64,000 nt of DNA, from positions 558,001 through 622,000 of the forward strand of contig NZ_OY787469.1 in assembly GCF_963678835.1 (NCBI RefSeq). Reading direction: 5' to 3'. The stretch is from an uncultured Desulfuromonas sp. GTDB taxonomy: Bacteria; Desulfobacterota; Desulfuromonadia; Desulfuromonadales; Desulfuromonadaceae. The position numbers were made by a program, and so were the translations under genes. Below are positions 362-16,675 of this stretch, piece after piece. Position 1 is the first letter of the stretch. Every line of letters begins with the position of its first letter. The notes below the pieces were generated by a model. It was given only the letters and a program-made list of their open reading frames with translations. It was not told where the DNA came from and searched no databases.

Positions 362-535
362 ACAGATGTTGCAATCGCATGGCCCGGTCAAGGGAAGAGG
401 AGTGCAAATCTCCCGCTGTCCCGCAGCCGTAACAGGGAACGAACGCCCGAACAACCACTGTCGTGGAGCCAACCACGATGGGAAGGCGGGTCAGTAGGTC
501 GCCCTGGAGCCGGAAGACCTGTCCGGGCCGATTTT
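362..535 (+). promoter_or_regulatory. Cobalamin riboswitch ahead of the btuB-cobN gene run
   Basis: The B12-box architecture is visible in order: AAGGGAA near 391, a GTGCAAATCTCCCGCTGTCC segment (402-421), CAGCCGTAACAGG (424-436), then GGGAAGGCGGG (480-490) and the closing box GGAGCCGGAAGACCTG (506-521). It ends about 25 bases before the receptor start codon at 560, with the ribosome site GGAGG (546-550) just downstream, so repression by adenosyl- or methylcobalamin at translation or transcription is expected. The boundaries are approximate. Confidence 0.92.
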
Positions 536-559
536 TATTCCCGAAGGAGGAAAGAAGAC

Positions 560-2497
560 ATGAAGAAAAGAGGATTGCTGGCCCTGTATGGTGTCGTGCT
601 TACCGGGCTGATGTGTTTGCCGCTGACGGCGGCGGCGGAGCAGAGTGTGGCGATGGACGACGTGGTGGTCACCGCGACCCGGACCGCAAGCGCCACGACG
701 GGCGGAACGTCGGTTTCGGTGATTACGGCGCAGGAGATTGCGGCGAAACAACTGACTACGGTCGAGGAGGTGCTGAAGACCACGCCGGGCATCGATGTTG
801 TGGCCAACGGTGGTCTGGGAACCCAGTCATCGGTGTTCATTCGCGGCGCGGATTCGAAAAACACCCTGATTCTGGTCGACGGGGTGATGTTTAATGACCC
901 CTCCGGTTCCAATCGCGGTGCCGATCTCGCCCATTTGACCACGGACAATATTGAGCGGATCGAAATCGTCCGCGGCCCCATGAGCGTGCTCTACGGCAGT
1001 AATGCCACCGCCGGTGTCATCAACATTATCACCAAGCGCGGCAGCGGTACGCCGCACGCCGCCCTCAGCGCGGAAGCCGGGTCTTACGGCACTTGGAAAT
1101 TGTCCGGCAACGGCTCCGGCGCCGTCGGCAAGGCCCATTACAGCCTCGGCGTCTCGCGGCTGGAGTCGGACGGCTTCTCCATTGCCGACGATGACAACAG
1201 CCATATTCCCCATGACGGCAATACCTCCGAAGATGACGGCTATGAAAACACCACGGTTTCGGGAAAATTCGGTGTGGAGATCAGCGAGGATTTTGAAATT
1301 GTCGCCACCTTGCGCTATCTCGATGCCGAGGTGGACCTTGACGCCTGGGGCCCCGGCTATACCGGCGACCGCTTCGGCGGCTGGCCGGACTATGCCCCCC
1401 AGCCCAACGGCAAAACAGACTACCATAATGAAACCGAGGAATATCTCGGCCGTCTGGATATCAAAAACCGCTTTTTCAACGACGCCCTCACCTCGGACCT
1501 CTACGTGCAAGGCTCCCGCCACGAACGCGACGGTTATGACAATGACGGCGCGCAATCTTATGATTACGTCGGCGAATCCCGGGAAATCGGCTGGCAGGGC
1601 AGTTACCGGGTCAATGCCGCCAACACCCTGACGGTGGGCGGGGCGCTGTTTCGCGAGGAGATGGAAAGCGATTCGTCCGGCATCTCCAAAAAGGACGCCG
1701 ACACCACGAGTTTCTGGGCCCAAGAGCAGCTGCGTCTCGGCAGCTCGTTTGAGCTGGTGGCCGGGGTGCGTTATGACGACCATGATCGTTTCGGCGACAA
1801 AACCACCTATCGCCTGGCACCGTCCTATGTCACTGATTTCGGTCTGGTGCTCAAAGCCAGCTACGGCACCGGCTTTCGCGCCCCTTCGTTGTATGAGCTG
1901 TACTCTTCCTACGGCAGCGAAGACCTGGATGCCGAAGAGAGCGAAGGCTGGGATGTCGGCTTCGAGCAGGAATTCGCTTCCGCCAACCTGCTGGTGGGCG
2001 TGACCTACTTTGAGCAGACCTTTGAGGACCGCATCGATTTCGACATGGCCACCTGGCACTACAGCCAACTGCCCGGCGACACCGAAACGCGCGGGGTGGA
2101 AACCTTTGTCCAGTGGCGTCCCGTTGATGCGGTTCTGCTGCGGCTCAACTACACCTATAACGATACTCAGGACCCCGACGGTGCACGTCTGACCCGGCGG
2201 GCACTCAACAAGGTCAACCTGACGGCGTCCTACACCCAGGGGCCGTTCGGGGTGAATCTCGACTGCCGCTGGGTCGGTGAGCGGGATGCCATCTCTTCGG
2301 CCGCCGACGAAAACGGCAACAGCGTCAGTACGCTGGACGCCTATACGGTCGTCAACCTGGCCGCACGCTACGACATCACGGAAAATCTGTGCCTGTTCGG
2401 TCGCGTCGACAACCTGTTTGACGAATTCTACGAAGAAGCCTGGAGCTATGCCACGCCCGGTCTTTCCGGTTATGCCGGGGTCAAGGTGACCTTCTAA
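560..2497 (+). CDS. btuB: TonB-dependent outer-membrane receptor, BtuB-like
   Basis: This 645-residue protein should be an outer-membrane beta-barrel importing cobalamin or related corrinoids with energy from TonB-ExbB. The start at 560 is chosen because GAAGGAGG precedes it and a signal peptide (about residues 1-24, ending TAAAEQ) follows; the open frame extends upstream through the riboswitch but that part is RNA. A TonB box-like DDVVVTATRT comes right after the signal, then a plug domain (about 35-150, with VFIRGADSKNTLILVDG), and the barrel ends in the aromatic terminus KVTF. The cobalamin riboswitch upstream and the corrinoid genes downstream support B12 as substrate. Another corrinoid or cobalt chelate cannot be excluded. 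Confidence 0.88.
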   Translation: MKKRGLLALYGVVLTGLMCLPLTAAAEQSVAMDDVVVTATRTASATTGGTSVSVITAQEIAAKQLTTVEEVLKTTPGIDVVANGGLGTQSSVFIRGADSKNTLILVDGVMFNDPSGSNRGADLAHLTTDNIERIEIVRGPMSVLYGSNATAGVINIITKRGSGTPHAALSAEAGSYGTWKLSGNGSGAVGKAHYSLGVSRLESDGFSIADDDNSHIPHDGNTSEDDGYENTTVSGKFGVEISEDFEIVATLRYLDAEVDLDAWGPGYTGDRFGGWPDYAPQPNGKTDYHNETEEYLGRLDIKNRFFNDALTSDLYVQGSRHERDGYDNDGAQSYDYVGESREIGWQGSYRVNAANTLTVGGALFREEMESDSSGISKKDADTTSFWAQEQLRLGSSFELVAGVRYDDHDRFGDKTTYRLAPSYVTDFGLVLKASYGTGFRAPSLYELYSSYGSEDLDAEESEGWDVGFEQEFASANLLVGVTYFEQTFEDRIDFDMATWHYSQLPGDTETRGVETFVQWRPVDAVLLRLNYTYNDTQDPDGARLTRRALNKVNLTASYTQGPFGVNLDCRWVGERDAISSAADENGNSVSTLDAYTVVNLAARYDITENLCLFGRVDNLFDEFYEEAWSYATPGLSGYAGVKVTF

Positions 2498-2570: not shown

Positions 2571-4577
2571 ATGACGAACAAACACGTTTTACCGACACTT
2601 CTGCTCACGGCGCTGTTGCTGTTATCTGCCGCGCCCGGCCATGCCGCCTCGGTGTGGACCGATGCTTTCGGCCGTGACATTACGTTTTCCCAGGCGCCGC
2701 AACGGGTGGTGTCGTTGGTGCCGACGGTGACGGAAATGCTGCTGCGCCTTGGTGTTGATGAACCGCTGCTGGCCGTAACCTATCACAGCCACATGCCGCC
2801 CGAAGTTGCCGGCAAGTCGCGCATCGGCGGTTTTTTTGCGCCGGACCTGGCGCGGGTCGCCGCCCTCGAACCGCAGGTGGTGTTTTACTCAGCGATCCAG
2901 AAAGAGGTGCCGGACTACTTTGCCGACAGCGCAACCGTGCTGATCGAGGTGGATACCCGTTCCATTGACGGGGCGTTTGCGAGTCTGCTCAAACTCGGTG
3001 AGCTGTTCAACTGCCGCGACCGTGCTGAGCAACTGCTCGCGATGAACCGTGACCAGTTGCAGCTGATCGCCGCGAAAGTGGCGAAAATTCCCTTGGAACG
3101 GCGCAAAAAAGTGATGCGATTGATGGGGCGGGACCGGATCATGACGCCGGGAGCCGATTCCTTCCAGAATGAGCTGATCCGCGCCGCCGGCGGCATTCCG
3201 CCGGATTTTACCGCCCAAGGTGCCATTGTCCCGGTTTCACTGGAGCAGTGGCGTCACTTCAACCCGCAAGTGATCTATGGCTGCGGTGACGACAACAGCG
3301 CTGTGGCGCCGATTCTTGCCGAGGACGGTTGGCGGGATGTCACTGCGGTTCGGGACGGCAATATCTTCCATTATGCCTGTGACCTGACCTGTCGGGCCGG
3401 GACCAATATCGGCTATTTTGTTGCGTGGCTGGCCGCTGATATCTATCAGGACGAATTTTCTCAGCCGGAAAATGTGGTCGAGCCGGACGCGATTGTCACC
3501 GAGCGCCGCCTGGACGTGCCGTTGACGTATGTCAAACAGGCCCGCGTGGTTCATAGTCGCATCGATGATTTTGTTCATAAGACCCTGCGTGTCGATTTGA
3601 AACAGCCGATGACGGTGGTATCGACACTCGAAGGGCAGCGGCAGGGGATTTCGGTGGTCGGCAACAGTTACTCCCCTCCGCCAACCTGGAGAATGCTGCA
3701 CCATAAAGGGCTGGCCGCCGGGCGGGCGGAGGTTCTCCGTTCTCTGGGCCTGGCACAAGAGGAGAGCAGTCTGCTGTTTACCGGGGCCGATATGGACAAC
3801 CTGGCCATCGTCCAGACCCGTTATCGGCAGATGGAGGTGTTTGCCCTGGTGACCGCCGGTGTTCGAAGCAACGCGGTGCGCATGTCGCAAGACGTTGGCG
3901 CATTTTATGAGCCGGGGACCATCAACATGCTGCTGCTCAGTAATGTGCGTTTATCCCCCCGCGCCATGACCCGGGCGATCATTTCCGCAACCGAAGCTAA
4001 AACCGCCGCGTTGCAAGACCTTGATATTCGCAGCGCCTATTCCGGCGACCGGCACCAGGCGACCGGGACGGGAACCGATAATATCATTGTTGTCGAGGGC
4101 GAAGGCGTTGCCGTTGATAATGCCGGTGGCCACTCCAAATTGGGAGAGCTTATCGGCAAGGCGGTTTATCAAGGGGTCAGGGAGGCGGTGTATCGGCAGA
4201 ACGGGATCGTGGGTGAGCGGAATATTTTTGCGCGACTCAAGGATCGCGGCTATTCCGTGCGCGGTCTGGTTGATGCCCGGTCTTTTCGCGACCAGAAGCA
4301 GTTCAGTTGGGTGATCGCCGAGCTGGAATCGCTGCTGCTCAACGAACGGTACGCCGGGTTTGTTGCTTCGGCCCTGGCCCTCAGTGATCAGTACGAGAGC
4401 GGTCTGGTGACCGATCTTGATGCCTTCGACAGTTGGTGCGCCCAGCTTGCCGGTGACATTGCCGCCAAAGACCAGGTCGATATCTCGGCAGGGTACACGA
4501 GCGACAGCCTGCCGCCGGTGATCAGGCACGCGTTTGACGCGATTTTGAGCGGTCTGATGGCGCGGGAGTCCCTGTAA
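2571..4577 (+). CDS. Periplasmic BtuF-like binding protein fused to adenosylcobinamide amidohydrolase (CbiZ)
   Basis: The protein has 668 residues. ATG 2571 is preferred over the TTG at 2550 because a clean signal peptide (residues 1-26, ending GHAAS) follows. Residues about 30-310 are a class III substrate-binding fold of the BtuF/FepB type (RVVSLVPTVTEMLLRLGV; RVAALEPQVVFY). Residues about 335-530 match CbiZ, which cuts the aminopropanol amide of adenosylcobinamide to give adenosylcobyric acid: NSYSPPPTWR, TAGVRSNAV, GTGTDNIIVVEGEG, GGHSKLGELIG. About 140 C-terminal residues are unassigned. CbiZ is normally cytoplasmic, so a secreted fusion would put corrinoid capture and remodelling in the periplasm. 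No BtuCD permease or ATPase lies next to it. The stop overlaps the next start by one base. Confidence 0.82.
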   Translation: MTNKHVLPTLLLTALLLLSAAPGHAASVWTDAFGRDITFSQAPQRVVSLVPTVTEMLLRLGVDEPLLAVTYHSHMPPEVAGKSRIGGFFAPDLARVAALEPQVVFYSAIQKEVPDYFADSATVLIEVDTRSIDGAFASLLKLGELFNCRDRAEQLLAMNRDQLQLIAAKVAKIPLERRKKVMRLMGRDRIMTPGADSFQNELIRAAGGIPPDFTAQGAIVPVSLEQWRHFNPQVIYGCGDDNSAVAPILAEDGWRDVTAVRDGNIFHYACDLTCRAGTNIGYFVAWLAADIYQDEFSQPENVVEPDAIVTERRLDVPLTYVKQARVVHSRIDDFVHKTLRVDLKQPMTVVSTLEGQRQGISVVGNSYSPPPTWRMLHHKGLAAGRAEVLRSLGLAQEESSLLFTGADMDNLAIVQTRYRQMEVFALVTAGVRSNAVRMSQDVGAFYEPGTINMLLLSNVRLSPRAMTRAIISATEAKTAALQDLDIRSAYSGDRHQATGTGTDNIIVVEGEGVAVDNAGGHSKLGELIGKAVYQGVREAVYRQNGIVGERNIFARLKDRGYSVRGLVDARSFRDQKQFSWVIAELESLLLNERYAGFVASALALSDQYESGLVTDLDAFDSWCAQLAGDIAAKDQVDISAGYTSDSLPPVIRHAFDAILSGLMARESL

Positions 4578-7500
4578 TGCGGGTGGTTCTTTTTCTGTTC
4601 CTGCTGCTGAGCGCCGCGTCGGCACATGCGGGAAAACTTGCTCTGCTGGTGATTGACGGCGACAGCACGGTGGCCTATCAGGGCGTTGCCGACCTTGATC
4701 TCGCCGGCGCCCACCAGGTGCGCTCCCTGACCCTGCCGGAACTGACGCAGCAGCCGGATGCCGCTGCTTTTGTGGCGGCGGCCGATGTGGTGCTTGTGGA
4801 TGTCATGAGCCCGGAGCTGAGCGCTTACATGGTGGACCACGACCTGATCAAAGGGAAGACGGTCTACGCGCTGCGTGGTTCTCGTGACGATGACCGTCTC
4901 AGGCAGCAGGGCTTTGTTTTTGACGAAGCGATCAGCGGATATTTCGCTGACCTGTCACGCCGGAATGTGACCGGCATGATCAAGCGGGCCTTGCACCAGA
5001 CCATTGACCCATCCGTCGATTATCCAGAACGGGTCAGCATTCCGGCAACCGCCATTCACCATCCCGACGCCGAACAGTTGTTCGACAGCGTTGCCGCCTA
5101 TAAACAGTGGTATGCCCAGCGCTACCCTGAGCGTGTGGATCGTTCCTGGGTGGCTCTGACCTTTTATATCACCACGCTGCGTGACGGACAGGTTGAGGCG
5201 GCCGATGCCCTGATCAAAAAACTCGAAGAGAGCGGTTTTAATCCGCTGCCGTGCTTTGGTCGTCCCGACCTGACGTTTCAGCGCTTTTTACATCGCAGCA
5301 ATGGTCGGGCGCCCGCGGATCTGTTGCTGAGTTTTACCCTCAAATTCTGGTCGGCGCTGAATGAGGAGGTTAAACAGGCGCTCAAGAGTCTTGACATCCC
5401 GGTGTTCAACCTGGTGCGCCTTTACAGCTCCGAGCTGGATGCATGGCGCGAAAGCCCGGTCGGGATCGCCCCTCTTGAGGTCTCGTGGGCCATCGCCAAC
5501 CCGGAAACGACCGGGGCCATCGAGCCTACGGTCATCAGTGCCAAGCGCAAAAAGATCCTCGAAGACGGCAATAAACCCCTCTACTACTACGATCTGGTTG
5601 ACGAAAATGTCGATCACCTGCTGTTGCGGATCAACGCCTGGTCGCACTTGCAGCGCACAGCCAATCACGACAAAAAAGTCGCGTTGCTTTATTACAACCA
5701 CAGCCAGGGTAAGCAGAATATCGGCGCCAGCTATCTGAATGTGTTCCGCAGTGTGGCGGCCATCATCGCGCGGATGAAAGCGGAAGGCTACCGGATCAGC
5801 GGTGACGGCACCCTCAGTGAAGAGAAGGTGCGCCGGATGATTCTGCGCAGCGGACGCAATATCGGCTCATGGGCTCCGGGAGAACTGGAGACCCTGCTGG
5901 CCGGCGGTGAGGTTGAGCTGCTACCGGTCGCCACCTACCGGCGCTGGTTTGACGCCCTTCCCGAGGCGTTTACCCGGCCGGTTGTGGAGCAGTGGGGAGA
6001 GCCGGAACAGAGCGACATCATGACCAGGGACGGCAATATTGTCCTTCCCATGGTGCGTCTCGACCATCTGGTGCTGTTGCCGGAGCCTTCGCGCGGCTGG
6101 AGCGACGACCCGATCAAGCTCTATCACGATCCGACCGTTTACCCGCACCATCAGTACATTGCCGCTTACCTGTGGTTGCAGCATCAGTTCAATGCCGATG
6201 CCATGATTCATCTGGGGACGCATGCGACCTACGAATGGTTGCCGGGAAAGCAGGCCGGACTGGCCGCTTCAGATCCTTCGGAGATCATGGTCGGCGATAT
6301 TCCCAATGTCTATCCCTACATCGTCGATGATGTCGGCGAGGGGATTCAGGCCAAACGGCGTGGGCGCGGGGTGATTATCGATCATCTGACACCGGCGCTA
6401 AAGGATGTTGACCTGCATGATGACTTGAGTGCGCTTCGTTATGTGCTGAGTCGCTATGAATTGAGTGCCGGTATCGGCGGAGCAACGGCTGCCGAATATC
6501 TGCATCAGATCGATACCCTGCTGAGACAAACGGGGATCGGCGAGGCGCTGGCCATCGACAAGATGACCGCGGCAGACGTCGAAAAAATCGATCATTATCT
6601 GCACGAGGTTGATGACGGCGTTATCCCTTTCGGCATGCATACCTTCGGCACGTCCTATTCGCAGGAGGGATTGGACAGTACTCTGGAGGTGATCTGTTCC
6701 GCCCATCCGGACCTCGACCGGCAGCAACTGAAAAAAAATCTGGCCACTTCGGCGCAACGGGAAATGGACCAACTGATCAAAGCCCTTGGCGGCGGCTATA
6801 TTTGCGCCGGAGAGGGCAATGATCCGCTGCGAAACCCCTATGCTCTGCCGACCGGGAAGAATTTCTACGGCTTTTCGGCCGCCCGCTTACCGAGCAAGGC
6901 CGCTTGGAAACTGGGGCGGAAGGCCGCGGACGATCTGATCGCGGAACAGCTTGCCGAAGATGGCGGTTACCCGCGCAAGGTGGCGGTTGTGCTGTGGGCG
7001 GTCGAGAGTCTTCGCAACGAAGGGGTCAACGAAAGCACCATTCTGGCCCTGCTTGGCATGGAGCCGATCTGGGACAGTAGTGGCCGGGTCACCGGCACCC
7101 GGCCTGTTCCGGGCAAACAACTGGGGAGGCCACGTATTGATGTCTTGGTCAATCCGTCCGGTTTGTATCGCGACCTGTTTCCTGAAAAACTCCTCTGGCT
7201 TGATGACGCCATTCAAAAGGCGGCCCTGCAAACCGACATCGAAAACATCCTTGCCGAGAACAATCGCAAGATCGAAGCCACCCTGCTTGAGCAGGGGCTC
7301 AGCCCTGAACAGGCTGCGGCGCAATCACGACTGCGGATATTTACCGAAAAGCCCGGCTCTTACGGCAACGGTGTTTCCGAACTCACCGGAGCATCCGGGT
7401 TCTGGGAGTCGGACCAGGAGATTGCCGGGGTGTTTCTCAACCGCAGCAGTTATGCCATCGGCAACGGCCAATGGGGCGTCCCTTCCCGACAGGTGTTGAC

Positions 7501-8488
7501 GGAAAATCTCAAAGAGGTGGATACCGCGGTCCATTCGATCTCCTCGAACATCTACGCGACCATGGATAACGATGACATGTTCCAGTATTTGGGTGGGCTG
7601 TCCCTTGCGGTACGCACGGTTCGCGGCCAGGCACCCAAAAGCCGGGTCACCCTGCAAAAAATGCCCGGTCAGGTTGAGGTGGCACCGTTAAAGCGGGTGA
7701 TCAGTCAGGAACTGCAACAGCGTTATCTGAATCCCCAGTGGATTGAAGGGATGACGCAGGAGAACTACGCCGGTGCCCATGAAATGGCCAAGTTTGTCGA
7801 ATACCTGTGGGGCTGGCAGGTGACGACGCCGGATGCGGTGTCTCAGGCCTACTGGAATCAGGTCAAAGAGGTCTATGTTGACGACAAATACCGCCAGGGG
7901 TTGAAGGATTTTTTTGCCGCCCACAATCCCTGGGCCTATCAGTCGATGACGGCGCGCATGCTCGAAGCCGTGCGCAAGGGCTACTGGCAGCCGACCGAGC
8001 AGGTCCAACAGCAGTTGGCCCGAGAATATATCGACAATGTTCTACGCCAGGGGGTGGCCTGCTGCGACCACACCTGCAACAACCCGGCTCTCAATCAGAT
8101 GGTGATCAACATTGCCTCGCTGCCGGGGGTGATGGATCCGCGGTTGGTGGAGCAGTTCAAGATCGCCATTGAAAAAATGGCGCAAAGCTCACTGGATCAA
8201 CAACTGGAGCAGCGTCGGCAGCTGCAACGTAAATTGCAGTCTGGATTTGAAGCGCGCAAGACAACGCAGGCTAATGAGCAACAGGCCCAGCAGGAAAAAA
8301 CACAGGCGGCGAAGTCGGAGGGCCGGGAAGAGCAGCAGGTCACCGGCTACAAAATGGACAAGGTCAGCCGTGAGGACGAAACCACCGAGCTGAGTTCCTC
8401 GGGCATTCAGTGGCTGGCGGCGTTCAGTGTCATGGTGGTGGTGGCAGTGGTCGCTGCCGCGATCTGGTGGCGTCGCCGCCAGTATTAG
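4577..8488 (+). CDS. CobN-like cobaltochelatase family protein, exported and membrane-anchored
   Basis: This 1303-residue protein belongs to the CobN/BchH/ChlH large chelatase-subunit family. The signature is HLGTHATYEWLPGK (residues 545-558), followed by a YPYIVDDVGEGIQAKRR block; classical CobN has HGN-EWLPGK, so the GN pair is changed to AT. Unlike cytoplasmic CobN it begins with a signal peptide (about 1-19, ending AHAG) and ends with a Gln/Glu-rich, probably coiled region (about 1210-1265), one membrane helix (about 1278-1296) and RRRQY. The expected topology is a periplasmic body held in the inner membrane. No CobS/CobT or BchI/BchD ATPase genes are adjacent; DUF2162, ExbB and DUF2149 genes are instead. 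Metal insertion into, or removal from, tetrapyrroles during uptake is inference. The start overlaps the preceding stop (TAATG). Confidence 0.85.
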   Translation: MRVVLFLFLLLSAASAHAGKLALLVIDGDSTVAYQGVADLDLAGAHQVRSLTLPELTQQPDAAAFVAAADVVLVDVMSPELSAYMVDHDLIKGKTVYALRGSRDDDRLRQQGFVFDEAISGYFADLSRRNVTGMIKRALHQTIDPSVDYPERVSIPATAIHHPDAEQLFDSVAAYKQWYAQRYPERVDRSWVALTFYITTLRDGQVEAADALIKKLEESGFNPLPCFGRPDLTFQRFLHRSNGRAPADLLLSFTLKFWSALNEEVKQALKSLDIPVFNLVRLYSSELDAWRESPVGIAPLEVSWAIANPETTGAIEPTVISAKRKKILEDGNKPLYYYDLVDENVDHLLLRINAWSHLQRTANHDKKVALLYYNHSQGKQNIGASYLNVFRSVAAIIARMKAEGYRISGDGTLSEEKVRRMILRSGRNIGSWAPGELETLLAGGEVELLPVATYRRWFDALPEAFTRPVVEQWGEPEQSDIMTRDGNIVLPMVRLDHLVLLPEPSRGWSDDPIKLYHDPTVYPHHQYIAAYLWLQHQFNADAMIHLGTHATYEWLPGKQAGLAASDPSEIMVGDIPNVYPYIVDDVGEGIQAKRRGRGVIIDHLTPALKDVDLHDDLSALRYVLSRYELSAGIGGATAAEYLHQIDTLLRQTGIGEALAIDKMTAADVEKIDHYLHEVDDGVIPFGMHTFGTSYSQEGLDSTLEVICSAHPDLDRQQLKKNLATSAQREMDQLIKALGGGYICAGEGNDPLRNPYALPTGKNFYGFSAARLPSKAAWKLGRKAADDLIAEQLAEDGGYPRKVAVVLWAVESLRNEGVNESTILALLGMEPIWDSSGRVTGTRPVPGKQLGRPRIDVLVNPSGLYRDLFPEKLLWLDDAIQKAALQTDIENILAENNRKIEATLLEQGLSPEQAAAQSRLRIFTEKPGSYGNGVSELTGASGFWESDQEIAGVFLNRSSYAIGNGQWGVPSRQVLTENLKEVDTAVHSISSNIYATMDNDDMFQYLGGLSLAVRTVRGQAPKSRVTLQKMPGQVEVAPLKRVISQELQQRYLNPQWIEGMTQENYAGAHEMAKFVEYLWGWQVTTPDAVSQAYWNQVKEVYVDDKYRQGLKDFFAAHNPWAYQSMTARMLEAVRKGYWQPTEQVQQQLAREYIDNVLRQGVACCDHTCNNPALNQMVINIASLPGVMDPRLVEQFKIAIEKMAQSSLDQQLEQRRQLQRKLQSGFEARKTTQANEQQAQQEKTQAAKSEGREEQQVTGYKMDKVSREDETTELSSSGIQWLAAFSVMVVVAVVAAAIWWRRRQY

Positions 8489-8498
8489 TACCTGAGAA

Positions 8499-8620
8499 CA
8501 GTCAATGTTGTCATCGTAGAGCCACCTGTAGGAGCGAATTTATTCGCGAATTGTTCTGGGAGTGATCCTTTTCATGATGGAAATTCGCGGCTGAAGCCGC
8601 TCCGACAAGATCCAATTTCC
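8499..8620. repeat. Dispersed REP-like repeat, copy 1
   Basis: The core CCTGTAGGAGCGAATTTATT (8525-8544) and GGCTGAAGCCGCTCC (8589-8603) recur at 19261-19340, and flanking similarity extends the match to about 120 bases. Each copy holds a small hairpin (GCGGCTGAAGCCGC) and the pair GGAGCG/CGCTCC, so the unit can fold on itself. It lies in the gap between the cobN-like and DUF2162 genes without breaking either. Confidence 0.8.
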
Positions 8621-8712
8621 GTCTTGCTTACAAAATCAGATGCTTGAAAACCTGCCCGTGATTCTGGTCGCCTTTTCTGGGCTCCACAGGTTGTTTTCAA
8701 TGGCCTGTCAAG
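8614..8712. repeat. Second dispersed repeat family, copy A
   Basis: The stretch containing CGTCTTGCTTACAAAATCA (8620-8638), CTTGAAAACCTG, TGGTCGCC and GGCCTGTCAAGG aligns with 35955-36058 at roughly 75% by eye, with small gaps. It abuts the REP-like copy to its left, and its right end merges into the ribosome site of the DUF2162 gene. Confidence 0.65.
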
Positions 8713-8720
8713 GAGGTCGC

Positions 8721-9461
8721 ATGGAATTTAAAAGCCTGGTTCTGGGGCTGGTGTTCGGTCTGGGCGTGTTTGCCGTCAAAAGCGGCATCGGCCTGGGCGC
8801 GCTGATTGGCGTCATTGCCGAACCGCGTCGCAGACGGCTGGCGGTGTTCGGGCATCTGCTCGCTTATCTGGCCCTGTTCGGCCTCGGTGCGCTGTTGCTG
8901 CGGCAGGTCGCCCTGCTGGACTATTTTCCCCGTGTCCAGAGCCTGTTTCGCGTCGGCACCACCCTGCATCTGCTCCTGGCTGTGGCCCTGGGTGGCTGGG
9001 GACTGGTGCTGTTGTTCGGCCGCAGCGGTAAAACGGGCTGGCAGCGCCGTGGCTGGCTGTTGTTGAGCCTGCCCTGCCCGGTGTGCGCCACGGTGATTGT
9101 GCTGGAAACCGCCTTTGTCATGCAGTTTTTTCCGCACCGGGCGCTGTTCGCTGTTGCCGCCATGGCAACGGGGTTCGTGTTGGTGCAGTTCCTCACCGCA
9201 CTGCTGCTGCGCCGCAGCCTGCGGCAGACGGTGGATGGTGAGCGCGTCCTCGGCGTGTTCATGGTGTTGCTTTCGGCCTATTTTGTGCTGGCGGCCTGCC
9301 TGATGCCGCAGTTTGCCCAGATCGATCGCATCTATCGACTGTGCGCTGCCGGAGACGGTTGCTGCGGGGAAGGGAATCAACTGCTGGTGACGCTGTTTGC
9401 CATGGCGGCGGTCGCCGGGGTGGGGGTGTTGTTGCGTTTGCGTCATATGAAAAGGATCTGA
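8721..9461 (+). CDS. DUF2162-type multi-pass membrane protein (predicted transporter)
   Basis: The protein has 246 residues and about seven hydrophobic segments. ATG 8721 follows AAGGAGGT at ideal spacing; an in-frame start at 8640 would be read from repeat sequence and is rejected. Composition and neighbourhood match the DUF2162 family, which is found beside cobN-like, exbB-like and DUF2149 genes in delta-proteobacteria and methanogens. A CPVC motif in the fourth helix region and a Cys-rich loop (CAAGDGCCG, near residue 213) could bind a metal or carry out thiol chemistry; that is inference. It is probably co-transcribed with exbB four bases downstream. The substrate is unknown; cobalt, a metal chelate or a corrinoid are plausible. 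Confidence 0.72.
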   Translation: MEFKSLVLGLVFGLGVFAVKSGIGLGALIGVIAEPRRRRLAVFGHLLAYLALFGLGALLLRQVALLDYFPRVQSLFRVGTTLHLLLAVALGGWGLVLLFGRSGKTGWQRRGWLLLSLPCPVCATVIVLETAFVMQFFPHRALFAVAAMATGFVLVQFLTALLLRRSLRQTVDGERVLGVFMVLLSAYFVLAACLMPQFAQIDRIYRLCAAGDGCCGEGNQLLVTLFAMAAVAGVGVLLRLRHMKRI

Positions 9462-9465
9462 TTCG

Positions 9466-10104
9466 ATGGCTTTGATCAAAACCTATATTTATCTCATTTC
9501 CACCGCCCTGTTTTACCCAGTGTTGGTGCTGCTGGCGGCGTTGTCGGTGTGGGCTCTGCTGTTACTCGGCTTTTTCTGCGCCGATGCCTATGAGCGGCTG
9601 CGCCTGATTCCGCTGAAGCAGGCGGATGAACTGCTGGACGCGCCCGATTCGCACCGGCAGCGCTGCAGCTATGCGGTCCGTGCCTATCTGCGCGAACTCA
9701 GGGCGCTGCTTGAGCACGGCGGCGCGACGCGGGATTTGGAAATCGAGCACCTGCTCCAGCAGCATCGCCGAAGGCTGGATACGAAACTGGATAAACTGAT
9801 GATTCTGGTGCGCACCGGCCCCGGTCTCGGCCTGATCGGCACCTTGATTCCCATGGGCACCGGCCTGGCCGCTCTCGGTCAGGGAGATATGACCCGGCTG
9901 GCCGCCGACCTGGTGGTTGCTTTTACCACCACTGTGGTCGGCATGGCGGTCGGTCTGTTGGCCTATGTGCTGCACAGCCTGCAGAAACGCTGGCACGAGG
10001 AAGATCTGCTGCAGATGGAATTGGCGACGGAGTTGCTGGTCGACGGCGCAGTAGCGGACCCGCAAGACGCGACGCAACGCGAACAGGGGGCGAGGGCGGC
10101 ATGA
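9466..10104 (+). CDS. MotA/TolQ/ExbB-family proton channel protein
   Basis: In this 212-residue inner-membrane protein, helix 1 (about 12-40) is followed by a charged cytoplasmic stretch, then LIGTLIPMGTGLAALGQGDM and a third hydrophobic segment around AFTTTVVGMAVGLLAYVL, the conserved ExbB/TolQ core with its channel threonines. Family members use the proton gradient to drive TonB/ExbD-type proteins. Here the usual ExbD is replaced by the overlapping DUF2149 gene, so the motor is probably dedicated to the neighbouring receptors or to the CobN-like protein. No tonB gene is visible in the window. Confidence 0.85.
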   Translation: MALIKTYIYLISTALFYPVLVLLAALSVWALLLLGFFCADAYERLRLIPLKQADELLDAPDSHRQRCSYAVRAYLRELRALLEHGGATRDLEIEHLLQQHRRRLDTKLDKLMILVRTGPGLGLIGTLIPMGTGLAALGQGDMTRLAADLVVAFTTTVVGMAVGLLAYVLHSLQKRWHEEDLLQMELATELLVDGAVADPQDATQREQGARAA

Positions 10105-10457
10105 GGATTTCGCGCAGGCCACGACGTTATTTCGCTCGGCCCAGCGGCAGTCGGGAGGGGGCGGATGAAGATCCGTTGGCCGGTATTGCCAATCTGTTTG
10201 ATCTCGGTCTGGTGTTTATTGTGGCGTTGATCATTTCGGTTTTTTCCGCCTATCATCTGGAGGATTTGTTTGATCAGAACAGCGAGTTGACGGTGATGAA
10301 GCGCACCGCCGACGGCCAACTGGAGATCATTACCAAGAAGGGGCGCAAGATTGAAGCCTTTCGTTCGACGAAGCAGCAGACCTCGGGGCAGGGCGAACGG
10401 CTGGGAACCGCTTATCGTCTCAAGGACGGCAGCATGGTCTATGTGCCGGAAGATTGA
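10101..10457 (+). CDS. DUF2149 protein, probable ExbD/TonB-like partner of the channel
   Basis: The protein has 118 residues and overlaps the exbB-like gene by four bases (ATGA), indicating tight translational coupling. After a basic, Arg-rich N-terminus comes one membrane helix (about 30-52: GLVFIVALIISVFSAYHL) and a small domain expected in the periplasm with VMKRTADGQLEIITKKGRKI and GTAYRLKDGSMVYVPE. Size and single-helix topology resemble ExbD. The family is known mainly from its linkage to cobN-like and exbB-like genes; its molecular role has not, to my knowledge, been shown. Confidence 0.75.
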   Translation: MRISRRPRRYFARPSGSREGADEDPLAGIANLFDLGLVFIVALIISVFSAYHLEDLFDQNSELTVMKRTADGQLEIITKKGRKIEAFRSTKQQTSGQGERLGTAYRLKDGSMVYVPED

Positions 10458-10472
10458 ACCGTGGAGAACAGG

Positions 10473-12347
10473 ATGAGACGATTGTTGCATGACATGGCAG
10501 TGTGCGCACTGTTCGGGATTGGGGCTGTGTTGGCACTGGAGGCTCCGGCGCACGCCGAGGATCTGGCCACCACTCTGGAGGAGATCACAGTCACTGCGGT
10601 CCGGGTCGAGGAGTATATCAGCAACCATCCACAATTGGTGGAGGTGATCGGGCGGCGGGAGATCGACGAACGCAATCTGGCCACGGTCGAGGAGGCGCTG
10701 AAGACCCTACCGGGCGTGGATGTTTCTCAGGGGAGCGGTAGCGGCAGCCGCGTCTCCATCCGAGGTTCCGGGCGTTCCTCGGGCGTGTTGGTACTGGTTG
10801 ATGGCCGGCCCCTCAACAGCAATCAGTACGGTCGCCTCGACCTGAACACGGTGCCGGTGGATCAGGTCGAATCGATTACGGTGTTCAAGCCGCCGGTCCC
10901 GGTCTGGCTTGGTCCCGGTGGCAGCGACGGCGCCATCAACATCGTGACGCGAATTCCGCCTGCGGCGGATAAATCAAACGGTCCGCGCACCACGTGCAAG
11001 CTGCGCGGAGGCTCCTACGGATTGGTGGCGGGCAGTCTGAGTCGCATGCTGGAACTTTTTGATGGGACTGCCCAGGTTACGGTGTCCGCCAACCACCGCG
11101 ACGGCAAGCGGCGCAACAGCGACCGGGACACGGCATCGGCGGCGGTCAACTGGAGTCGCCAGGGGGCACAGGGCGTTCGCTACGCGCTGAGCGGTCGTTA
11201 CTACGATTCCGAATACGGTTGTGCGGGCCCCACCGACAATCCAACTCCGGCCGCCCGGCAGCGCTATCGCAAAGGATCGCTGGAAAGCCGCTATGTCGAC
11301 ATGCTGGGAGAAAACGGCACCTTGGAAACAGTCCTGTACGGCGATCTCACCACCCTGCGTGACCGTTCACAGTCTGGATTTGTCGCCACGCTGGACGAGT
11401 GCAAGGCCGGATTCAAGGCGGACACGACCTGGACGGCGCCAGACGAATCCTGGGAGGGGCGGCTTGGTGTCCTGTCGGAGTGGAACACAATCGACCAGAC
11501 GCTGACCGGAGAACACGAGCGGTTTCGCAACAGTCTGAGCGGCCAGTATGATCGCCGTTTTGCGGCACTGACCACGACCATCGGCCTCAGGGGTGATGTC
11601 ACCAACGATTACGGCATTGAACCCGGATTTACCGCCGGCATCGGTTGGGGGATGAACGAAAAGGTGTTGATCAAGATTTCGGGCGGCTATACGGTCAATG
11701 TCCCCACCTTCGGTCAGCTCTATCAGACCGCTCACGGTTCCATCGACCAGACTCGGGGGAACGCAGACTTGGACGAAGAGCGGATCTGGTCCTATGACCT
11801 CGGCATCGAGTACCGTCCGGCCAAGGACGCCCTCTTTCAGATCACTCTTTTTCGCACGGACAGCGCCGATCTGATCAGCTATCAGCGGGGAGGTGACCTG
11901 ATCTACCGCCCGATGAACATTGCCGACGCCTGGCGTGAAGGGATCGAGCTGACCGGAAAGTCGCCTCTGTGCGCGGGATTGTCTTCGGAGACCAGTTTGA
12001 TCGTGCAACATTCTGAAAACAGCGCCACCGGGCAGCAGCTGCCCTATACCCCGAAGGTGAAGATCAAGCAGACGTTGCGCTACAGCCTTCCGGGGCAGAA
12101 AACCCGCCTTGAGGGAACCCTGCGTTATGAAGGGCGACGCTACAGCCAGGTGGAGAACCGGGCGGCCAATGCGATGGGGGCTTTTGCGACACTCGATCTG
12201 AAGGCGAGCCGTGCGTTCACCTTGCGCGGCGTAACTTGTGACGGCTACGTAACGGTGGAGAACCTTTTTGATCGACGTTATCAGGCGCATTATGGGTATC
12301 CGGATGACGGCATCCGCGTTATTGCCGGGGTGCAGGCACGTTTCTGA
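10473..12347 (+). CDS. TonB-dependent outer-membrane receptor (second receptor of the corrinoid cluster)
   Basis: The protein has 624 residues. ATG 10473 is chosen over GTG 10461 because GGAG lies six bases upstream and a signal peptide follows (to about residue 25, ending AHAED). A TonB-box-like EEITVTAVRVEEY, a plug domain (VSIRGSGRSSGVLVLVDG; SDGAINIVTRI) and a beta-barrel ending in Phe (VQARF) are visible. It follows the DUF2149 gene by 15 bases, so it belongs to the same transcript. Sequence similarity to the first receptor is limited, so it may carry a different corrinoid or a metal complex. No siderophore or heme genes are nearby. Confidence 0.85.
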   Translation: MRRLLHDMAVCALFGIGAVLALEAPAHAEDLATTLEEITVTAVRVEEYISNHPQLVEVIGRREIDERNLATVEEALKTLPGVDVSQGSGSGSRVSIRGSGRSSGVLVLVDGRPLNSNQYGRLDLNTVPVDQVESITVFKPPVPVWLGPGGSDGAINIVTRIPPAADKSNGPRTTCKLRGGSYGLVAGSLSRMLELFDGTAQVTVSANHRDGKRRNSDRDTASAAVNWSRQGAQGVRYALSGRYYDSEYGCAGPTDNPTPAARQRYRKGSLESRYVDMLGENGTLETVLYGDLTTLRDRSQSGFVATLDECKAGFKADTTWTAPDESWEGRLGVLSEWNTIDQTLTGEHERFRNSLSGQYDRRFAALTTTIGLRGDVTNDYGIEPGFTAGIGWGMNEKVLIKISGGYTVNVPTFGQLYQTAHGSIDQTRGNADLDEERIWSYDLGIEYRPAKDALFQITLFRTDSADLISYQRGGDLIYRPMNIADAWREGIELTGKSPLCAGLSSETSLIVQHSENSATGQQLPYTPKVKIKQTLRYSLPGQKTRLEGTLRYEGRRYSQVENRAANAMGAFATLDLKASRAFTLRGVTCDGYVTVENLFDRRYQAHYGYPDDGIRVIAGVQARF

Positions 12348-12393
12348 CACGCTGCTGAAAATCCCATCCGGGGGCTTGTGTGTGTCCCTGCGC

Positions 12394-13809
12394 TCAGGTG
12401 GTATAGGGTGAAAATCCGCGCTGGTTTTCATCCACGGGCAACGTGGTGCCAACCTGGGGAAAGGCCCGCTGCAGACAATCCGTGCGTGGGCAGAGCTTGC
12501 AGTTGGTCCCGATCAGGGTGAAGCCGTCGGCGTCTTTGAGGTCAAGGCCCCGGCTGTAGACCAGTTGCTCCGCATGGCGCAGATCACAGCCGAGGCCGAC
12601 GGAATAGATCTTGCCCGCCGCGCCGAAGCCGCCGTAATGATGCGACACCGTCCTGGCAATCCAGAAATAACGGCGACCGTCCGGCATGGCGGAAAGTTGG
12701 GTGAAGATCTTGCCCGGTTGGGCAAAGGCGTCGTAAATATTCCACAGCGGGCAGGTGCCGCCGGTGCGGGAAAAGTGAAAATCCGTCGCTGACTGGCGTT
12801 TGGAGATGTTGCCGGCGCGGTCGACACGAATAAAAAAGAACGGCACGCCGCTTGCTCCGGGGCGTTGCAGGGTGGAGAGGCGGTGACAGATGGTTTCAAA
12901 ACCGACACCGAAGATCCGCCCGAGCAGTTCGGCATCATAGTGAAGCTGTTCCGCCTGGTGTAAAAATTGCCGGTAGGGCAGAATCAGGGCCCCGGCAAAA
13001 TAATTGGCCAGGCCGATGCGGGTGAGGCGGCGAGCTTCGTCGCTCGCTGGGTCTGCCTCAGCGGTCAGGGTGTCAATCTGCGCGCCCGCTTCGAGGAAGG
13101 CAAGCTGGGTGGCCAGTTGAAATGCCGCCTGACCGCTTTCCAGTTGGGACGACAGCGTCAGGACGCGCTGGGCGCTATCGAAACGGCGTTGGAAATCGTT
13201 GTCGGCGTTGTCCACCGCGCCGCGCACGGTGCGGATGCCGTGGGTCCGGGCCAGGCGCTTTTCCAGCCCCTCGGCGGTGTGTCCGGGCCGCAGTTGCCAC
13301 TCTTCGGCCAGCCTTTCGGCCAGCTCATCAAGTTCGCTGATGTGATTGCGGCGGGCATAGAAAAAATCGCGAACTTCCTCAAACGGCATCCGTTTACCGA
13401 TGCTGATCTCACTGCGATCCAGACCGAGACGGACGGCCAGAGCTTCCTCACGCTCGTTGGCCTGACGCTGGTTGTGAGCCTGGCGCAGAAGCGTCCGCGC
13501 CACCGCCGGCATGTTGGTGGCCAGCTCCCGGATCTCGGCAAGGGAGACGCGCTCTTCCGCCTGGTCGCTGAACAGCTCGCGCAGTTCGGTGATCAAACGC
13601 GCCTCGGCGTCTTCCGCAAACAATTGAACATCGACGCCAAAGGCAGCGTTGAGTTTCAGCAATACCGCCACGGTCAAGGGCCGCTGGTTGCGTTCAATCT
13701 GATTCAGATAGCTCGGCGACAATTCCAGCGCGCGTGCCAGGGCCGCCTGGGTCAGGCCGCGCTCCTCGCGCAGGCGCCGCAAGCGCACGCCCATAAAGAT
13801 TTTTTCCAT
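12394..13809 (-). CDS. ScfR/RamB-type XRE regulator with acyl-CoA-sensing C-terminus
   Basis: The protein has 471 residues. An N-terminal XRE helix-turn-helix (about 5-60: RLRRLREERGLTQAALAR, LSPSYLNQIERNQRPLT) is followed by an IrrE-like middle domain and a C-terminal part with conserved cysteines (CKLCPRTDC). This is the layout of the short-chain fatty acyl-CoA regulators (RamB, PrpC-type, ScfR) that govern acetate, propionate and glyoxylate metabolism. ATG 13809 is preferred to TTG 13824. The IrrE-like part lacks an obvious HExxH, consistent with a sensor rather than a protease. Three TTTGCAA boxes in its promoter suggest autoregulation. Likely targets are the methylmalonyl-CoA genes elsewhere in the window. 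Confidence 0.82.
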   Translation of the reverse strand: MEKIFMGVRLRRLREERGLTQAALARALELSPSYLNQIERNQRPLTVAVLLKLNAAFGVDVQLFAEDAEARLITELRELFSDQAEERVSLAEIRELATNMPAVARTLLRQAHNQRQANEREEALAVRLGLDRSEISIGKRMPFEEVRDFFYARRNHISELDELAERLAEEWQLRPGHTAEGLEKRLARTHGIRTVRGAVDNADNDFQRRFDSAQRVLTLSSQLESGQAAFQLATQLAFLEAGAQIDTLTAEADPASDEARRLTRIGLANYFAGALILPYRQFLHQAEQLHYDAELLGRIFGVGFETICHRLSTLQRPGASGVPFFFIRVDRAGNISKRQSATDFHFSRTGGTCPLWNIYDAFAQPGKIFTQLSAMPDGRRYFWIARTVSHHYGGFGAAGKIYSVGLGCDLRHAEQLVYSRGLDLKDADGFTLIGTNCKLCPRTDCLQRAFPQVGTTLPVDENQRGFSPYTT

Positions 13810-13839
13810 TTTAGACGTCCTCAATGGTCCTTTGGTGTA

Positions 13840-13877: not shown

Positions 13878-14095
13878 TGTCCCTCATTTTCAGGGGTAGA
13901 CAGCTATTTTTCTTTTGCGTATATTGCATAGCAATGTTTTTACATGCAAGAGCAAATGTTAATTTCTACATCGGGCAGGCTGTTTCGGGCTGGACGATTG
14001 CACCACGTTGTTTGTGCGTGGAGAAAGGAGGATGTTGGGTCCGTTTCTATCAATGGACCAATGAATTATTGTAGAGCCTTTTGCACAAAGTCAGT

Positions 14096-14265
14096 GATGG
14101 CTTCTTTGCAAGAGCCTCAAGGCGAACAGGAAACGGAAGACGGTGAAAATCCGTCGCGGGCGCGCCGCTGTAACCGGCACAGACAATCCCCCTGCCACCA
14201 CGGTTGATATCAACCGGAAGGGCGCAGGATCACGGGAGCCGGAAGCCAGAAGACGTCCTGTTCAT
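14096..14265 (+). promoter_or_regulatory. Cobalamin riboswitch upstream of metE
   Basis: Conserved segments in order: GGTGAAAATCCGTCGCGGGCG (14142-14162) around the B12 core, CCGCTGTAACCGG (14165-14177), CAACCGGAAGGGCGCAGGATC and the closing GAGCCGGAAGCCAGAAGAC (14236-14254). Downstream, TCCTGT (14255-14260) can pair with ACAGGA (14293-14298) in the metE ribosome site, suggesting that B12 binding blocks translation. Control of the B12-independent methionine synthase by B12 is well-known biology. The 280 bases between the regulator start and the aptamer hold only the TTTGCAA boxes and AT-rich promoter sequence. Confidence 0.93.
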
Positions 14266-14307
14266 ACAGAATCATATTGTCTCGCGTTTCAGACAGGAGA
14301 ATCTTCA

Positions 14308-16605
14308 ATGGAAGCACATGTTTTAGGTTTCCCACGGATTGGTCGTGGGCGAGAATTGAAAAAGGCCCTGGAGGCCTACTGGCGTGGCGAAAGCAGCGCC
14401 GAAGCATTATTGCATTGCGCCGAAAGCCTGCGCGAGCAGAATTGGCGCTATCAGCACGACAACGGTTTATCTCTGGTCACGGTTGGTGACTTTTCCCTTT
14501 ATGACCAGATGCTTGATACCGCCTGCATGCTCGGCATGGTGCCGCCCCGTTTCGGTACGGTGAACGGCGATGTTGACCTGACCACCTATTTCCACATGGC
14601 GCGTGGCGATGCGCAACGCAATATCCCAGCCATGGAAATGACCAAGTGGTTTGATACCAATTACCACTACCTGGTCCCGGAATTTTCCGCCCAGACCACC
14701 ATCCAACTGGCATCGCGCAAACTACTCGACGAAACCCACCAGGCCTTGGCTCTGGGGTTGCGTCCCAAACCGGTTCTGATCGGACCGATCACCTTTCTCT
14801 CTTTGAGCAAACAGGAAGACGGCGTTAATCGCTGGGAGTTCCTGCCGCAGATTTTGGCTGTTTATTGCGAGGTCATTAACCGGCTGGCACCGCTGTGCGA
14901 CTGGATTCAGATCGATGAGCCGGTACTGTGTACTGACCTGTCTCTGGAAGGCAAAGCACAGGCCACAACGACCTGGCAACAGCTCAAGCAGGCGGCCGGA
15001 TCGTGCCAAGTGCTGTTGGCCACCTACTTTGGTCGCCTGGATGAGGCCGTGCCGTTAATTGCGGCCAGCGGCTGCGATGCCATCCATCTTGATGTGTTGC
15101 GCAACGAGTCGCATTTATCTGAAATCATTCAACAGTTGCCAACAAGCATGATGGTCTCCGCCGGGATCGTCGAGGGACGCAATGTGTGGAAGAACGATCT
15201 GCGTTGCAGCCGGGAGCGGCTCGACAGGTTGCGCAACATGATTGGTGACGAGCGGCTGATGATTGGCTCCACCAGTTCCCTGCTCCACGTGCCGGTGGAC
15301 CTGTTTCAGGAGCAGCAGCTCGATCCGGCCATCAAAAGCTGGCTGGCCTTTGCCGTGCAGAAGTGCCGCGAAGTCGCCTTGCTGGCCCACCTGCTCGATG
15401 ACGGCGATCACGAAGCACTGCTGCGCGGCAGTGACCATGTTCAGGCTACGCGCCGTAACGATTCGCGGGTCGAACGGCCCCTGGTGCGGCAGCGAGCTGC
15501 TCAGGTCAACGACGCCATGCTCACACGCACAGCCTACGCGTTGCGCCGTCCGCAACAGGCCCAGTGGCTGCACCTGCCGTTGCTGCCGACCACGACCATC
15601 GGCTCGTATCCACAAACCCGCGCCATCCGCCTCATGCGTCGTCGCTATCAGAGCGGCGAGGTCAGCGAACAGGTCTATCGCACGTTCATGCAGTCGGAGA
15701 TTCACAATACCGTCAGTGAACAGGACGTCCTGGGCCTGGACGTGCTGGTGCATGGTGAGCCGGAGCGCAACGACATGGTTGAGTATTTTGGCCAGCAGAT
15801 GGATGGCTTCTGCTTCAGCGAACACGGTTGGGTGCAGAGTTACGGCAGCCGCTGCGTCAAGCCGCCGATCATTTACGGCGATGTGTCGCGACCGCGCCCC
15901 ATCACCGTAGAATGGATTCGCTACGCTCAAAGCCTGACCGACAAACCCATCAAAGGGATGGTCACCGGGCCGGTGACCATGCTGTGCTGGAGCTTTGTTC
16001 GCGACGATCTGCCGCGCGATGTCGTGTGCCGACAACTGGCTTTGGCCGTGCGCGACGAGGTGCAGGATTTGGAACAGGCCGGGATTCAGTTGATCCAGAT
16101 CGATGAAGCCGCCCTGCGTGAAGGGATGCCGCTGCGCAAGGACGAAGCCGAAACCTATCTGCGCTGGGCCGTGGATTGCTTTCGCCTTACCAGCGCGGGC
16201 GTGGCCGACACCACCCAGATTCACAGCCACATGTGCTACAGCGATTTCAATACCATTCTGCCCTGGATTGCCGCCATGGACGCCGATGTGATCAGCATTG
16301 AGGCCAGCCGCAGCAACATGGACCTGCTTGAAGGCTTTCGTCGCCTTGAGTATCCCAACGAGATCGGGCCGGGCATCTATGACATCCACAGCCCGCGTGT
16401 ACCCGAAGTGGCGGAACTGACCGATCTAATCTGGCGGGCACTGGAGGTGGTGCCGAAAGAGAAATTGTGGATCAACCCGGACTGCGGCCTGAAAACCCGC
16501 CAATGGCCGGAAGTGCGCGCAGCGCTACGCAATATGGTCTTGGCAGCCCATCAGGTGCGACAGAGGGTGGAACAGGATCAGCTGAGTTGCCGGACGGCGG
16601 ATTGA
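14308..16605 (+). CDS. metE: Cobalamin-independent methionine synthase
   Basis: The enzyme (765 residues) transfers the methyl group of 5-methyltetrahydrofolate(-glutamate) to homocysteine in the cytoplasm without B12. The N-terminal half (VLGFPRIGRGRELKKALE at the start) and the catalytic C-terminal half (TTIGSYPQTRAIR; QIDEAALREGMPLRK; SHMCYSDFNTI; NPDCGLKTR) are both complete, including the His/Cys and Cys residues that hold the catalytic zinc. The length matches the family (about 750-770). ATG 14308 has ACAGGAGA ahead of it; an open frame reaching back to 14143 runs through the riboswitch and is not coding. The gene should be off when B12 is plentiful. Confidence 0.96.
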   Translation: MEAHVLGFPRIGRGRELKKALEAYWRGESSAEALLHCAESLREQNWRYQHDNGLSLVTVGDFSLYDQMLDTACMLGMVPPRFGTVNGDVDLTTYFHMARGDAQRNIPAMEMTKWFDTNYHYLVPEFSAQTTIQLASRKLLDETHQALALGLRPKPVLIGPITFLSLSKQEDGVNRWEFLPQILAVYCEVINRLAPLCDWIQIDEPVLCTDLSLEGKAQATTTWQQLKQAAGSCQVLLATYFGRLDEAVPLIAASGCDAIHLDVLRNESHLSEIIQQLPTSMMVSAGIVEGRNVWKNDLRCSRERLDRLRNMIGDERLMIGSTSSLLHVPVDLFQEQQLDPAIKSWLAFAVQKCREVALLAHLLDDGDHEALLRGSDHVQATRRNDSRVERPLVRQRAAQVNDAMLTRTAYALRRPQQAQWLHLPLLPTTTIGSYPQTRAIRLMRRRYQSGEVSEQVYRTFMQSEIHNTVSEQDVLGLDVLVHGEPERNDMVEYFGQQMDGFCFSEHGWVQSYGSRCVKPPIIYGDVSRPRPITVEWIRYAQSLTDKPIKGMVTGPVTMLCWSFVRDDLPRDVVCRQLALAVRDEVQDLEQAGIQLIQIDEAALREGMPLRKDEAETYLRWAVDCFRLTSAGVADTTQIHSHMCYSDFNTILPWIAAMDADVISIEASRSNMDLLEGFRRLEYPNEIGPGIYDIHSPRVPEVAELTDLIWRALEVVPKEKLWINPDCGLKTRQWPEVRAALRNMVLAAHQVRQRVEQDQLSCRTAD

Positions 16606-16648: not shown

Positions 16649-16675
16649 CTTCAGTAAGGATTTTTTACCACCCAG

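Follow-up and report, generated by a model that had tools for sequence, protein, structure and literature searches.

Here we describe a seven-gene operon on the + strand of a 64,000-nucleotide stretch of DNA (the window) from an uncultured Desulfuromonas sp. (contig NZ_OY787469.1, positions 558,001 to 622,000), which runs from the ATG at position 560 to position 12347, with most of its genes closely spaced or overlapping according to the open reading frames (ORFs) and their Pfam matches, and whose central gene encodes a CobN-like protein of 1303 amino acids (4577..8488, +). The operon follows a tandem pair of cobalamin riboswitches and includes, besides this protein, two TonB-dependent receptors, a fusion of a BtuF-like binding protein to CbiZ, a DUF2162 membrane protein, an ExbB-type proton channel subunit and a DUF2149 protein. 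A heme form of the module is already known (hmuSTUV), and what distinguishes the window operon is its membership of a cobalt/B12 branch with riboswitch control. We tentatively read it as a BtuS-type salvage system that spans the envelope, is repressed by cobalamin and would use a proton motor to drive a cobalt step, a reading that we place first while holding it with somewhat less than even confidence.

The first riboswitch of the pair occupies window positions -148 to 44 (G000:C1:557852-558044; Rfam RF00174, 109.6 bits), mostly outside the window, and the second (369..540, +; RF00174, 75.6 bits) ends about 20 bases 5' of the start codon of the first gene. From a survey of 296 genomes of the phylum, searched for DUF2149 and PF02514, 20 loci were read, and Rfam placed a cobalamin riboswitch at the operon head, on the same strand, in 15 of them; those without one were L078, which is cut by a contig end, L079, L080, L092 and L094. 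A riboswitch model (R1) was then made from 14 examples, taken from the window, from the flank upstream of it and from 11 of the loci tested. Of the 64 loci that remained after redundancy was removed and that had 5.5 kb or more of upstream DNA, 49 gave a same-strand upstream match, as did 38 of 53 once the loci that had built the model were excluded. This search omitted L172, and six of its 83 matches were left untallied (three in L077, two in L176 and a fragment in L129), L077 and L129 being positive anyway and L176 remaining uncounted. Cobalamin riboswitches also precede hmu-like clusters in Bacteroidetes, e.g., in B. fragilis, where a role in cobalamin metabolism was suggested (PMC10100974). 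B12 control is what marks this branch of the CobN-like module.

The CobN-like protein matches PF02514 with 1015.6 bits, far above the cut-off of 24.5, and falls short of the NCBIfam CobN equivalog cut-offs (best 912.9 bits vs 1619; TIGR02257, 631.3 vs 822.05). Hydropathy analysis revealed an N-terminal peak of 2.1 and a C-terminal peak of 2.8 followed by WWRRRQY, and a signal-peptide cleavage site between AHA and G was read by eye. Because a signal peptide is combined with a C-terminal anchor that has positive residues after it, the chelatase body should face the periplasm, in agreement with the prediction made in the initial annotation. Among its relatives, the N-terminal hydrophobic peak was found in 82 of 92 proteins and the C-terminal one in 84 of 92, whereas CobN-type controls displayed a C-terminal hydrophobic segment in 0 of 30 cases (one being a cut frame) and an N-terminal peak above 1.6 in 1 of 30. 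The CobNST cobaltochelatase, which is cytoplasmic and ATP-driven through CobS and CobT, shares PF02514 and a DxDD-type motif with the window protein, but the latter appears to be exported and has no CobT counterpart: no match to CobT (PF11775, CobT_C) was obtained in this genome, listed as 100% complete, in a search that did not extend to CobS. As far as CobT is concerned, this supports the earlier view that the usual ATPase does not drive the protein; and since a match to CbiK, the early cobalt insertion enzyme, is present, a late cobaltochelatase would be unneeded. Taken together, the protein fits the description of BtuS, the third CobN type of Rodionov 2003, which is CobN-like, B12-linked and exported, and distinct from CobN and ChlH, a definition that we take second-hand from PMC6460266. 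In a tree of 48 proteins (unrooted and from a short search, with 12 ungrouped rows not counted), 20 riboswitch-linked proteins lay on one side of a branch with a Shimodaira-Hasegawa-like approximate likelihood ratio (SH-aLRT) of 98, and the same branch separated them from HmuS, from cytoplasmic CobN-type proteins and from a Ni/Zn-like group, a working label for five rows of which one has a nickel neighbour.

The nearest solved structures were HmuS (492 bits), then CobN (442 and 416 bits) and then ChlH. HmuS (PDB 9d26) is a membrane-anchored, NADH-dependent heme de-chelatase that removes iron from heme (PMC12583661) and has an essential His538, for which the window protein has His549. This residue and the acidic pair 999-1000, part of a DNDD motif at 997-1000, were invariant across 21 aligned proteins; the context of His549 is HLGTHA, against HFG(T/A)HG in HmuS, with L replacing F and A replacing the last G. 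The altered chemistry that had been read into HATYEWLPGK is not sustained, this being an ordinary motif of the family: among 104 proteins of at least 900 residues (HmuS row L178 and CobN row L179 having been dropped beforehand), H-A/G-T/S-x-E-W carried A in 40 and G in 61, the pattern being unmatched in 3. A C-terminal motif of the CC(D/E)HTCNN type, CCDHTCNN at 1162-1169 in the window protein, was present in 85 of the 104, some of the remainder being cut, while proteins from Runella and Dyadobacter keep two of its cysteines; the motif may bind metal or join redox chemistry.

Further, we considered whether the CobN-like protein is itself HmuS, and rejected this identity. Its second motif reads DNDDMFQYLGG (family DNDDxFQYLGG) where HmuS rows L178 and L186 have LSLDHVYEFMGG, so that the second His of HmuS, in LSLDHxxEFMGG, is absent here, as is any His near the position of HmuS His254; the Met-rich insert of HmuS was not seen in the 21-protein alignment or in the visible part of the alignment with HmuS, and the length is 1303 amino acids against 1463-1469. 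The heme ligand Met79 of HmuS does align with Met77, and the window protein carries CCDHTCNN, which B. finegoldii HmuS lacks. At the operon level, the Bacteroidota hmuYRSTUV clusters have, as here, genes for a CobN-like protein, a membrane protein, an ExbB-type protein and DUF2149 in a row (PMC10434189; B. finegoldii locus), but HmuSTUV handles heme and iron, whereas the window operon has cobalamin riboswitches and BtuF-CbiZ. That we are dealing with a heme system like hmu, the riboswitch being incidental, is therefore very hard to credit: although HmuS is the closest solved structure, this explanation is largely contradicted by the riboswitch counts and the BtuF-CbiZ fusion, as well as by the missing His254, Met-rich insert and LSLDHxxEFMGG. 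With respect to the published BtuS and riboswitch-preceded hmu-like operons (PMC6460266, PMC10100974), what our results appear to add is the BtuF-CbiZ partner, a wide Thermodesulfobacteriota clade and the Cys motif.

The gene neighbourhood defines the module across genomes. In the phylum survey, DUF2149 exceeded its cut-off in 31 genomes and PF02514 in 81, and a CobN-like gene stood no more than 10 kb from 28 of the 34 DUF2149 matches (25 by search coordinates and three more by reading of the DNA); the remaining six comprise three at contig ends, one split over contigs (G197) and two carrying stop codons (G067, G120). Nine copies had at first appeared to lack a CobN neighbour, the three settled by reading of the DNA being among them. 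The association is far beyond chance. The system was present in 2 of the 14 genomes that comprise the own genome and those of its order or class (G000 and G175), and is thus patchy. A wider survey took the best 79 of 576 relatives found in a species-genome collection, with record titles spanning Planctomycetota, Verrucomicrobiota, Nitrospira, Methylomirabilis, Synergistaceae, Bacteroidota and others. After the removal of repeats (L162 = L086, L171 = L081, L133 overlapping L131), 61 loci were complete enough, a label given to those in which the CobN-like gene had 4.5 kb or more of DNA before it and 2.5 kb or more after it, or else 7 kb or more before it. Of these, 58 had ExbB and DUF2149 nearby, 50 had DUF2162, 50 likewise had a receptor, and 26 had BtuF/CbiZ-like genes; the three loci without ExbB and DUF2149 were two at contig ends (L158, L164) and L121, from the metagenome-assembled genome (MAG) Gx485_bin53. 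Hence the co-occurrence expected in the initial annotation holds for the CobN-like, ExbB and DUF2149 genes, DUF2162 being less constant; this trio is the constant core, while receptor, permease and regulator vary. The BtuF-CbiZ fusion itself occurs in 27 of 101 loci, window included, and L083, L138, L159 and L175 have shorter BtuF- or CbiZ-like ORFs (247-412 amino acids) replacing it or alongside it. In the same Deltaproteobacteria bacterium Gx485_bin53, loci L123, L125, L127, L131 and L133 contain tandem BtuS-type paralogues, up to four per contig. For several of them, neither ExbB/DUF2149 nor a riboswitch was seen in the DNA read, and several have no hydrophobic segment at the C terminus.

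In the window, the ExbB/MotA-type subunit (9466..10104, +; PF01618, 47.7 bits, cut-off 22.9) and DUF2149 (10101..10457, +; PF09919, 107.5 bits), which has one membrane helix, take the places of HmuU and HmuV; Pfam recovered both, like the CobN-like and DUF2162 ORFs, at the positions first annotated. Asp34 in the DUF2149 membrane helix was invariant in an alignment of 28, and an acidic residue at the helix start, as in ExbD, was present in 76 of 76 members. The AlphaFold model of DUF2149 was too poor for a structure search (predicted local distance difference test, pLDDT, 65.7; predicted template modelling score, pTM, 0.31). It is plausible that this motor belongs to the chelatase rather than to the receptor, which we favour because of separate TonB and ExbD genes, gene overlap, a receptor-free plasmid and an archaeal genome. 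The DUF2149 gene lies immediately 5' of the CobN-like gene in 37 cases and overlaps it in 29, an upper value since it was taken from the longest reading frames. Among the 101 loci, TonB-like ORFs were found in 21, canonical ExbD-like ORFs in 18 and both in 15, in most cases beyond the ExbB/DUF2149 pair (L104, one of the 15, has no such pair on its cut contig); for TonB and for ExbD alike the phmmer search used two queries, so that distant ORFs may escape it. On a Comamonadaceae plasmid, ExbB-DUF2149-CobN stand without any receptor in the annotation of the 18 kb shown, and DUF2149 was detected in 1 of 14 control genomes, that of Methanosarcina acetivorans, which lacks an outer membrane and also has PF02514 (genome-level presence only). 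The cobN-exbB-exbD-tonB cluster of Trichlorobacter lovleyi plasmid pSZ77, whose authors found no CobS/CobT (PMC3403914), shares with the window a receptor, DUF2162, ExbB, DUF2149, the CobN-like protein and another receptor; it differs in that DUF2149 lies 5' of the CobN-like gene, a complete canonical ExbB-ExbD-TonB trio follows the module, and no BtuF-CbiZ was found in the 21 kb read.

These same observations argue against the explanation to which we give the next largest share, a sizeable but minority one, namely that ExbB and DUF2149 energise the TonB-dependent receptors, with TonB coming from elsewhere, and that the CobN-like protein is unpowered: TonB- and ExbD-like ORFs are mostly additional to the pair, a full trio adjoins the T. 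lovleyi module, no receptor accompanies the Comamonadaceae genes, and M. acetivorans has both families. Conversely, this is the published view, HmuU/HmuV having been assigned to the outer-membrane receptor (PMC12583661, PMC10100974); a receptor is near in the 50 of 61 loci mentioned above; and purified HmuS turns over heme without HmuU/HmuV, though for 1-2 turnovers only (PMC12583661). In the literature searched, we met no proposal that the motor powers the chelatase, nor one uniting the metal contexts described below.

The DUF2162 protein (8721..9461, +; PF09930, 118.7 bits), whose start with a ribosome-site-like stretch is ATG 8721 inside ORF 8640-9461, takes the place of HmuT, although HmuT of B. 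finegoldii has no DUF2162 match. Its residues PCPxC, K47 and W120 (numbered from the ORF start at 8640) were invariant in an alignment of 36, and PCPxC was present in 63 of 63 members; fold searches gave no clear structural relative, and no paper on DUF2162 by name turned up in the literature searched. Given the invariant PCPxC, DUF2162 might be an electron conduit; alternatively, it might be a metal permease. Possible DUF2162-ExbB gene fusions were also considered, but none of the four long ORFs checked has PCPxC, which makes overlong reading frames likely. Since DUF2162 has several membrane helices and the Pfam name 'predicted transporter', and the operon has B12 control and receptors, BtuS might instead be a non-catalytic periplasmic corrinoid carrier of a proton-driven inner-membrane importer formed with DUF2162, ExbB and DUF2149, in parallel to BtuFCD. 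We consider this unlikely, for the catalytic His is invariant (21/21) and the same genome apparently encodes another corrinoid importer of the standard kind, a btuB-btuF-btuC-btuD-like set behind its own riboswitch, recognized by eye (L015, G000:C2:655000-674000, at 3803-9053).

Regarding the reaction itself, the BtuF-CbiZ fusion (2571..4577, +; ATG 2571) joins a periplasmic binding protein domain (PF01497, residues 53-275) to an adenosylcobinamide amidohydrolase domain (PF01955, residues 350-543, 183.9 bits vs cut-off 27), with residues numbered on the ORF from 2550. CbiZ acts on cobinamide or pseudocobalamin by cutting the nucleotide loop (PMC3541065), and if this enzyme is exported, its product in the periplasm would be cobyric acid, a ring without a tail, like those on which CobN acts; by this analogy the CobN-like protein most likely handles cobalt in trimmed corrinoids there. 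In the salvage system that we propose, B12 scarcity would relieve the observed riboswitches and permit expression, the receptors, to judge by their family, would bring corrinoids to the periplasm, and exported BtuF-CbiZ would bind them and cut the nucleotide loop to give cobyric acid. The anchored CobN-like body would then take the ring for a metal step at His549, probably the removal of cobalt, to judge from the likeness to HmuS and to the nickel and zinc versions. In the boldest part of the proposal, the proton-driven ExbB and DUF2149 motor would work this body, e.g., in opening or product release, replacing CobS/CobT, and DUF2162 might, as a guess, hand on metal, ring or electrons. Removal is preferred over insertion on the analogy with HmuS and on the metal-starvation contexts. 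The opposite direction, in which BtuS would work as CobN does and load cobalt, in the periplasm, into corrinoids that have no metal or the wrong one, seems improbable to us: no source of metal-free corrinoids is known to us, metal-starvation regulators accompany related cores, and metal is removed by the exported relative whose activity has been published (PMC12583661), even though the window protein has DxDD for its second motif, which solved CobN and a Spirosoma CobN row share and HmuS, with LSLDH, does not, and the riboswitch calls for more B12.

Several points weigh against our proposal, in addition to the receptor assignment of HmuU/HmuV and the unassisted activity of HmuS. Taking cobalt out when B12 is short would spoil the ring, and insertion, exchange or carriage would therefore fit the riboswitch equally well or better. 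No riboswitch was found in 15 of the 64 loci; the best 79 relatives of the query alignment favour close kin; and in the paralogue arrays of Gx485_bin53 several loci are without nearby motor genes, some being cut by contig ends. The ExbD-like size of DUF2149 noted in the initial annotation stands, and its membrane Asp is ExbD-like as well, but a profile comparison did not reveal homology to ExbD, with an hhalign probability of 3% over 15 columns around that Asp. Finally, a nikR-linked Azospirillum protein has the second His (LSTDHPFEYLGG) that is missing here, and thus nickel and heme versions are alike at this position and the B12 version differs.

The same core is also found beside other metals. 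In Azospirillum brasilense a few genes separate the module from a TonB receptor and nikR, and in Runella slithyformis it sits within a hyp operon for [NiFe]-hydrogenase maturation, where the place of DUF2162 is occupied (plasmid L177, 6713-7339) by a NiCoT/UreH-like permease with HX4DH, which we take to be the NiCoT signature, its Pfam NicO and DsbD_2 matches being under their cut-offs. Pseudomonas aeruginosa PA1922-PA1925 likewise comprises a receptor, a CobN-like protein, a motor-type protein (annotated ExbD) and DUF2149, and differs by its control by Zur and its induction under zinc shortage, 45- to 147-fold in a znuA mutant (PMC4542158, PMC9431628). The corrinoid role suggested earlier is thus upheld as a link, through riboswitches and BtuF-CbiZ, and not as a specificity, as the core recurs in heme, nickel and zinc contexts. 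CobN-like protein, ExbB and DUF2149 could form a general class of proton-driven (de)chelatases, in which an ion-channel motor would replace the AAA+ ATPases of CobNST and ChlHID, an idea that we rate as doubtful; no less speculatively, tetrapyrroles or other chelates would be stripped of their metal in the ATP-free space outside the cytoplasm, and, with similar reserve, receptor, permease and regulator would be swapped for cobalt/B12, iron/heme, nickel or zinc.

The operon begins and ends with receptor genes. Its first gene encodes a BtuB-like TonB-dependent receptor (560..2497, +; PF00593/PF07715; ORF from 332, with a ribosome-site-like stretch at ATG 560), whose best NCBIfam model, TonB-B12, scored 324 bits, under its cut-off of 599.7; its last encodes the second receptor (10461..12347, +; PF00593/PF07715). 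A convergent neighbour (12394-13824, -) encodes a regulator with helix-turn-helix, M78 peptidase-like and ScfRs domains (Pfam), and a third cobalamin riboswitch (14081-14275) precedes a gene at 14143-16605 that by eye is metE-like (B12-independent methionine synthase). Upstream of the window (L013, G000:C1:538201-558200), a cobalamin riboswitch stands before a ribonucleotide reductase-like gene (10288-12659), and a metH-like gene (16653-19121) lies directly 5' of the tandem riboswitches, both genes being recognized by eye.

Should the motor act on the chelatase, it would be, as far as known, the first ExbB-type motor driving an enzyme reaction, others serving a receptor, the flagellum or the Tol system, and it could explain why purified HmuS halts after 1-2 turnovers (PMC12583661). 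With BtuF-CbiZ in the periplasm, cobamide remodelling would take place outside the cytoplasm, annotations as 'cobaltochelatase CobN' could be improved, and, if our proposal is true, the scavenging of heme, B12, nickel and zinc would be linked in one machine.

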